Shown here: piece by piece, positions 1,709-64,000 of the stretch
How positions within the stretch are numbered: position 1 is the stretch's first letter
How the letters are laid out: every line of letters starts with the position of its first letter
Made by a program: the position numbers and the translations under genes
The notes under the pieces: model-generated
Told to the model about the DNA's origin: nothing
Seen by the model: the letters and a program-made list of their open reading frames with translations, nothing else
Databases searched by the model: none
Assembly: GCA_020854055.1 (NCBI GenBank)
Contig: JADZGD010000144.1
Coordinates: 1-64,000, forward strand
DNA from: Bryobacterales bacterium
Lineage (GTDB): Bacteria > Acidobacteriota > Terriglobia > Bryobacterales > Bryobacteraceae
Length of the DNA stretch: 64,000 nucleotides
Reading direction: 5' to 3'

Positions 1709-5751
<4,043 letters not shown>

Positions 5752-63637: not shown

Positions 63638-64000
63638 TCATTCCACCGTCAGACAGCCGTTTCCCCAAACTGTGTGACGGCCCACTCCGGTCCAATGGGC
63701 GGCGCGGAGATACGGTACGAACTCCGCCAGCTCGCCCTGATATTCGGCCTCTCCGATGAACCCGCCCAGTGGGTGATTCTGTCCGGTCCGGCTTGAACGG
63801 CGCCGTGTATCGAGCCACTGCAGATCGCAGCGGGTCAGGCGCACCCGGGCTGCGCGTTCGGCCATACCCCGAAAATCGATTGGTAGCGGACCCGCTCCGT
63901 AAAGCGACCGGAGCGTGCTTACGCGGTCGCGGGCCCGTGAAAAGAGAACACCAAAATCCGGCTGCCGGACTGCGGCGCCATCGGCTTTGAGTTCGGTCGG
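63638..64000 (-). CDS. Cas6-like CRISPR pre-crRNA endoribonuclease, partial at the right edge
   Basis: The minus-strand frame from the window edge gives the C-terminal ~120 residues of a RAMP protein. It reads DRVSTLRSLYGAGPLPIDF, then DLQWLDTRRRSSRTGQNHPLGG, then GFIGEAEYQGELAEFVPYL, and ends with HWTGVGRHTVWGNGCLTVE. The order R-x-S-x-R-Q-like, GGxxGxxxYxGxLxxFxPYL and xxGxxTxxGxG matches the C-terminus of Cas6 of the PF10040 type. Such enzymes cut CRISPR precursor RNA at the repeats. The N-terminus, and any array or other cas genes, would lie beyond 64000. A CRISPR-unrelated Cas6 homologue is possible. Confidence 0.75.
   Translation of the reverse strand, partial: PTELKADGAAVRQPDFGVLFSRARDRVSTLRSLYGAGPLPIDFRGMAERAARVRLTRCDLQWLDTRRRSSRTGQNHPLGGFIGEAEYQGELAEFVPYLRAAHWTGVGRHTVWGNGCLTVE

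Follow-up and report, generated by a model that had tools for sequence, protein, structure and literature searches.

A stand-alone Cas6-fold protein and a family-wide, HD-less Csm operon in Bryobacteraceae: a candidate partnership in trans

At the edge of the window, the 64,000-nucleotide stretch of DNA analyzed here, lies a truncated reading frame whose translation resembles the end of a Cas6 protein, and from it the initial annotation had predicted a CRISPR-Cas locus just past position 64000. This raises the questions of whether the product is a true Cas6 and, if so, which machinery it would serve. The window corresponds to positions 1–64000 of a contig of 72,846 bases, on which the gene is complete (63638–64570, minus strand) and encodes a protein of 310 amino acids with an ATG start and no internal stop codon. 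The features of the gene that fall within the window are the following.

63638–64000, minus strand: C-terminal 120 codons of cas6; the frame is open at the window edge and the full gene reaches contig position 64570
63773–63775, minus strand: codon of His266, the sole widely conserved histidine in this Cas6 group (31 of 34 aligned rows)
63707–63766, minus strand: motif GGFIGEAEYQGELAEFVPYL, Cas6 residues 269–288, seen in the translation
63656–63691, minus strand: glycine-rich loop TGVGRHTVWGNG, Cas6 residues 294–305, with the stop codon five codons later

The pattern on which the Cas6 call had been based (GGxxGxxxYxGxLxxFxPYL, then a glycine-rich ending) is indeed present in the minus-strand translation, and the 120-residue fragment matches the Pfam profile PF10040 (CRISPR_Cas6) with 50.4 bits, far above chance and above the cut-off of 25. 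The completed protein scores 57.2 bits against the same profile (cut-off 25) and 251.6 bits against the PADLOC Cas6 model, which spans residues 1–310; the NCBIfam models gave no match to it at E ≤ 1. Across 31 aligned Cas6 sequences, Gly270, Gly273, and Gly279 of the motif are invariant, with Tyr277, Leu281, Pro286, and Leu288 nearly so, as well as Gly297, Gly303, and Gly305 of the glycine-rich loop, all three invariant. A phmmer search of the sequences of solved structures recovered no Cas6, whereas a search by fold recovered Cas6 enzymes. The AlphaFold2 model, built from the 31-sequence alignment, has a mean pLDDT of 91; its top Foldseek match is the Cas6 TTHB231 (E = 1.8e-12), the best solved matches are Cas6 enzymes, and VIA-align 2 superposes it on Streptococcus thermophilus Cas6 with a Z score of 19.1 and an rmsd of 3.3 over 227 aligned residues. 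Profiles, model, Foldseek, and VIA-align 2 therefore agree with the identity first proposed from the fragment.

In classical Cas6 enzymes, the catalytic histidine lies in the N-terminal domain. No N-terminal histidine reaches 85% conservation in our 34 aligned rows; the protein studied here has a histidine at residue 40, which is missing in the relatives shown. His266, the candidate for a catalytic or RNA-contacting role that sequence conservation makes possible, is absent from three rows (L110, L111, and L136), all of them the Cas6 proteins of Cas1-linked loci. The protein thus shares its fold, PF10040 C-terminal domain, and glycine-rich loop with the Cas6 endoribonucleases of Thermus thermophilus (TTHB231/TTHA0078), S. 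thermophilus, and Sulfolobus, but unlike them it has no cas partner that we found nearby and belongs to a group without a conserved N-terminal histidine. An atypical active site is on record for a crenarchaeal Cas6 (PMC3652601).

The surroundings of the gene do not bear out the predicted locus, in that the last 8.8 kb of the contig, past the window, hold neither an array nor another recognized cas gene. PADLOC gave no defense-gene match for five proteins beyond Cas6 or for etfA and etfB, and no cas match for ten proteins encoded in the window from 43.6 to 60.2 kb; among the 18 proteins scanned, Cas6 included, the sole cas match is Cas6 itself, and the candidate-system model PDC-S33 matched RelA with 46 bits. 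No CRISPR array was found within the 64-kb window; weak "direct repeats" of 20–33 nt in locus L003 turned out to be two-copy families. The initial annotation consequently holds for the profile match to Cas6 and fails for the repeats and further cas genes expected within 20 kb, which are absent from 20 kb on the window side and from the 8.8 kb on the other. Past Cas6, the scanned frames encode a small protein with a weak zinc-ribbon match, a HEAT-repeat protein, a glycerophosphodiester phosphodiesterase, a xylose-isomerase-like protein, and an 875-residue protein that matches no Pfam profile; the window side has etfA and etfB, together with genes that we took for fabF, acyl carrier protein, relA, and tonB/tolR types.

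We surveyed 31 Cas6 loci, taken from 31 genomes and amounting to 492 kb (one genome comes from another family), and found 30 of them without an array, the exception being a 37% identical relative within the CRISPR locus of genome G006. Searches with Csm and neighbor queries placed a Csm gene near Cas6 in none of the 31 loci, and no neighboring gene is common to more than five. On the strength of its modeled structure, the gene product truly has the Cas6 fold, and it stands alone; RNA cutting is its predicted activity.

A candidate partner is encoded elsewhere in the same genome. The assembly (4.96 Mb, 98.4% complete) contains one match to PF10040, no match to Cas1 (PF01867) anywhere, and one match to the RAMP profile PF03787 at E ≤ 0.001, on contig 3. 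That contig carries a complete cas10-csm2-csm3-csm4-csm5 operon (G000:C3, L094:6537–11855, minus strand), in which Csm3 (204.8 bits, TIGR02582), Csm4 (123.9 bits, TIGR01903), Csm5 (57.9 bits, TIGR01899), and Csm2 (44.9 bits, TIGR01870) all score over their cut-offs. Cas10 reaches 138.3 bits against the full-length profile TIGR02578, below the required 170, and 62.5 bits against the palm2 profile, over the cut-off of 27. At 494 residues it is close to the family median of 485, and residues 1–490 of its model (pLDDT 83) align to residues 247–753 of Enterococcus italicus Csm1 (Z = 32.4, rmsd 3.0, 442 aligned). Because the first residue of the model aligns to Csm1 residue 247 onward, we conclude that the HD nuclease domain, which is usual but not universal in type III-A Cas10 proteins, is absent, and DNA cleavage by this Cas10 through such a domain is accordingly not expected. 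The protein retains its GGDD motif, which leaves synthesis of cyclic oligoadenylate possible in this genome. Asp43 of Csm3 aligns with the conserved aspartate of solved Csm3 proteins, which we take to be the residue that cleaves target RNA; two of the five solved sequences shown have alanine there. In gene order, profile matches to all five proteins, Csm1 fold, and Csm3 aspartate, the locus corresponds to type III-A.

No array was found in 20 kb around this operon. A repeat at 4827–5089 of L094, taken up as a possible array, lies within a reading frame and repeats a unit of 18 residues in tandem; the frame (4817–5257, on the same contig 3), located about 1.3 kb past csm5, contains tandem repeats of 54 bases whose translation gives IGPTLPPNPWDEGPPKLT units, and in a crude scan it mimics an array.

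Csm3 proved to be widespread in the family. Scanning public genome contigs with the Csm3 of this genome yielded 164 relatives, 80 of which, 71–79% identical, we kept. Their record titles are mostly Bryobacterales, Bryobacteraceae, Solibacter or Solibacteraceae, Terriglobia, and plain Acidobacteria; two are odd, being MAG contigs with a Csm operon (L156 and L175) titled "Bordetella parapertussis" and "Acidimicrobiia bacterium" and probably mislabelled. The operon is also present in the family strain KBS 96 (record KB906767.1, titled Acidobacteriaceae and, judging by that title, not a MAG), which has Cas1 as well. With seven loci from the sampled genomes added, the set comprises 87 rows of core Csm loci, 83 of them distinct (four are repeats), in which csm2 and csm3 occur 87 times each, csm4 85, cas10 82, and csm5 75 times, several short rows ending at contig ends. 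A true array was found around none of the 87 rows (83 distinct; 1.32 Mb, at most 10 kb a side and often less); repeats in L154 (at 7605) and L167 (at 14628) are, on reading, plain tandem repeats.

Counted by genome, and with core Csm3 defined as 64% identity or more, 83 of 91 family genomes have core Csm3, 78 have Cas6 (including one 39% identical, CRISPR-linked copy and one fragment, while the 13 misses include three genomes with only a 27–33% relative), and 50 have Cas1. Core Csm3 occurs in 69 of the 76 family genera sampled and in 62 of the 65 family genomes with a completeness of 90% or more and a contamination of 5% or less (a single weak match being left out of both figures). A draw of 297 genomes from the phylum, 248 of which gave no match, returned Csm3 at 74–100% identity in three genomes of this family and a best long match of 47% elsewhere. 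Family members without core Csm3 are rare, examples being G087, G006, and G102; G087 (4 contigs, 98% complete) also lacks Cas6 and Cas1. Genome G030, 98% complete, has core Csm3 and neither Cas6 nor Cas1, either through a gap or as a Csm complex that does without this Cas6.

Within the 91 genomes, Cas6 co-occurs with Csm3: it is present in 74 and absent from 9 of the genomes with core Csm3, against 4 and 4 of those without (Fisher p = 0.013). The tie is not a strict one, as the same counts show. Cas6 shows no association with Cas1, which is present or absent in 43 and 35 genomes with Cas6 against 7 and 6 without (p = 1.0); for Csm3 and Cas1 the counts are 48 and 35 against 2 and 6 (p = 0.13), so these two are not clearly independent. 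Thirty-five Csm-bearing genomes have no Cas1, and 32 of these have Cas6. The co-occurrence bears on the idea that the stand-alone Cas6 is an independent RNase processing cellular RNA, unconnected to the Csm complex. Its physical separation from Csm genes, the lack of a recurring neighbor, and the genomes that hold one gene but not the other are what one would expect of such an enzyme; its association with Csm3 and a Cas6 fold complete with the glycine-rich loop are not, and we consider this explanation very unlikely.

CRISPR effectors generally turn over fast in evolution, and the Csm genes of this family seem to behave otherwise. With distances taken from best local matches in the 23 genomes having both proteins, the mean pairwise distance is 0.25 for Csm3 vs 0.32 for RelA, and the two distance matrices correlate at 0.65, a value reached by none of 999 permutations. 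Csm2 has a mean distance of 0.16 and correlates with RelA at 0.26 (10 of 999 permutations). Cas6 evolves faster (mean distance 0.50, 24 genomes), and its correlation with RelA, 0.40 (2 of 999), is weaker than that of Csm3.

With some preference over even chances, we hold that Cas6 most likely acts in trans for a conserved, family-wide, HD-less Csm module for RNA-guided RNA targeting, inherited almost as a core trait. Cas6 would cut a precursor guide RNA transcribed elsewhere in the genome, and the Csm complex specified by the separate cas10-csm2-csm3-csm4-csm5 operon would take up the resulting RNA; the loaded complex would then bind matching RNA, which the invariant Csm3 aspartate would cleave. 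Because Cas6 and Csm persist in many genomes that have neither Cas1 nor a detected array, adaptive immunity is probably not what the module does at present, or not all that it does.

The main rival to this proposal is that Csm and Cas6 form an ordinary immune module using crRNAs from arrays elsewhere, the array of this genome having been overlooked because it is short, has another type of repeat, or falls in an assembly gap. Most type III systems apparently use a Cas6 from other loci, in trans, according to one passage of a published account (PMC12669027), and many members of the family do have arrays and Cas1. Repeats were read in 1.10 Mb, about 22% of the genome, without an array coming to light, a share that leaves room for this explanation. 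A handle-bearing array, on the other hand, was found nowhere in the whole assembly, either by a two-copy pattern (a type III-like repeat end occurring twice at the spacing of an array, not every match being inspected) or by a looser three-copy pattern, tests that may miss short arrays or other repeat types and of which the first missed 6 of 18 Cas1-bearing genomes and the second covered only 23 family genomes. At least three matches to the handle pattern occur in 12 of 18 Cas1-bearing vs 0 of 19 Cas1-less family genomes, and at least two in 12 of 18 vs 1 of 19, the one being G003, with two places whose listed sequence does not look like a repeat. The Cas1-less genomes that nevertheless keep core Csm3, nearly all with Cas6, and the better conservation of Csm3 than of RelA likewise speak against an ordinary module, which we regard as possible but doubtful. 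A repeat in L279 (at 1680) was taken for a tandem repeat, since the two 22-mers found there overlap within a single short segment.

The Cas6 lineage itself has ties to another type of system. In genome G029, locus L236 (G029:C356, 129–8857) is a type I-A-like series of cas4-cas1-cas5-cas7-cas8-cas3-cas6 that ends in a relative of the window's Cas6; no array was found on its 11.8-kb contig. It is one of the 30 loci without an array counted above. It differs from the genome under study in having Cas1, Cas3, and Cas8, where we detected no Cas1. Cas1 lies within 10 kb of Cas6 in 4 of the 91 genomes, namely G029 and three more in which the distance is 6–7 kb. In the Cas6 tree, a group of 34 rows is split, with a support of 100/100, from a clade of three Cas6 proteins that belong to type III-like loci linked to Cas1, and the copy of G029 and the Cas1-linked one of G072 are placed among the stand-alone proteins. 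Most inner branches lack resolution, the bootstrap had not converged, and one row (L136) comes from G044, a genome of another family. From the type I-A-like locus and the three other copies near Cas1, it follows that this lineage also functions in type I systems or originated from them, and the stand-alone copies may descend from type I-type loci.

Such a descent could mean that the window's Cas6 is a relic or a shared part of a type I (I-A-like) system, cas6-cas3-cas8-cas7-cas5-cas1-cas4, the rest of which was lost from this genome. The gene order in G029 and the position of the G029 and G072 copies in the tree are in keeping with this possibility. A relic should decay, however, and Cas6 persists in nearly all of the Cas1-less Csm genomes without tracking Cas1; moreover, G029, G072, G077, and G081 each own a further Cas6 copy besides the Cas1-linked one. 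We therefore think a type I relic improbable and return to Csm as the partner.

If Cas6 does supply the Csm complex, conservation suggests which of its activities matters. Asp43 of Csm3 is kept in 87 of 87 rows (83 distinct), and among 73 Cas10 rows, 69 of them distinct, both cyclase aspartates are present in 61 and at least one is gone in 8. By sequence comparison, the RNA-binding and RNA-cutting backbone seems to be under tighter selection than the signaling site, and RNA-guided RNA cleavage is the best supported prediction for the most conserved activity of the complex. The module differs from usual type III-A in several respects: its Cas10 lacks the HD domain, its Cas6 is encoded elsewhere, no array was found near the 83 distinct loci, Cas1 is absent from 35 of 83 Csm-bearing genomes, 8 of 69 distinct Cas10 sequences have a degenerate cyclase motif, and the module is near-core in one family. 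A bolder version of our proposal, which we put forward tentatively, is that the family has turned a type III-A effector into a resident RNA-cleaving machine, in which fixed chromosomal guides trimmed by a detached Cas6 would serve gene control or lasting surveillance in place of adaptive immunity.

A Csm complex that is conserved better than RelA and persists where neither Cas1 nor an array is detected would be an uncommon example of a multi-subunit CRISPR effector that has become a fixed, near-core trait, and it raises the question of which RNA the complex carries and which it cuts. Subtypes III-B, III-C, III-E, III-F, and III-G are likewise mostly effector modules at loci without arrays, as a passage of the same account has it (PMC12669027); unlike these array-poor subtypes, the set described here is Csm by profile, near-universal in its family, and inherited in the manner of a marker gene. 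The relevant passages of a study of CRISPR counts in Acidobacteriota (PMC11778308) do not treat these Csm genes, and no report on Bryobacteraceae Csm genes was found in the open-licence PMC literature, searched mostly at the level of titles and abstracts.

Searches by blastn and k-mers beside the Cas6 and Csm genes found no guide RNA. Pairwise blastn of 10 Cas6 loci showed nothing outside Cas6 common to more than a few pairs, and the flanks of Cas6 are little enriched in k-mers, the best 12-mers upstream occurring in 4 of 30 vs 2 in shuffles and those downstream in 2 vs 2. Nor did k-mer enrichment of the flanks reveal a regulatory sequence shared between the Cas6 and Csm genes, which sit on different contigs. 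The Csm side gave more. Downstream of csm5 the k-mer signal is weak (5 of 72 vs 3 in shuffles), and in blastn of seven Csm loci the matches of the locus studied here include a short extension upstream of cas10 in L098. A promoter-like TGTGNTARAGT element sits roughly 40 bases ahead of cas10 (for example, around 11890–11900 of L094); it occurs with at most one mismatch in 47 of 73 rows, some of them repeated, vs a mean of 0.25 in shuffles. Beyond the csm genes themselves, the commonest neighbor of the operon encodes an ExeA-type ATPase, present in 31 of 87 rows.
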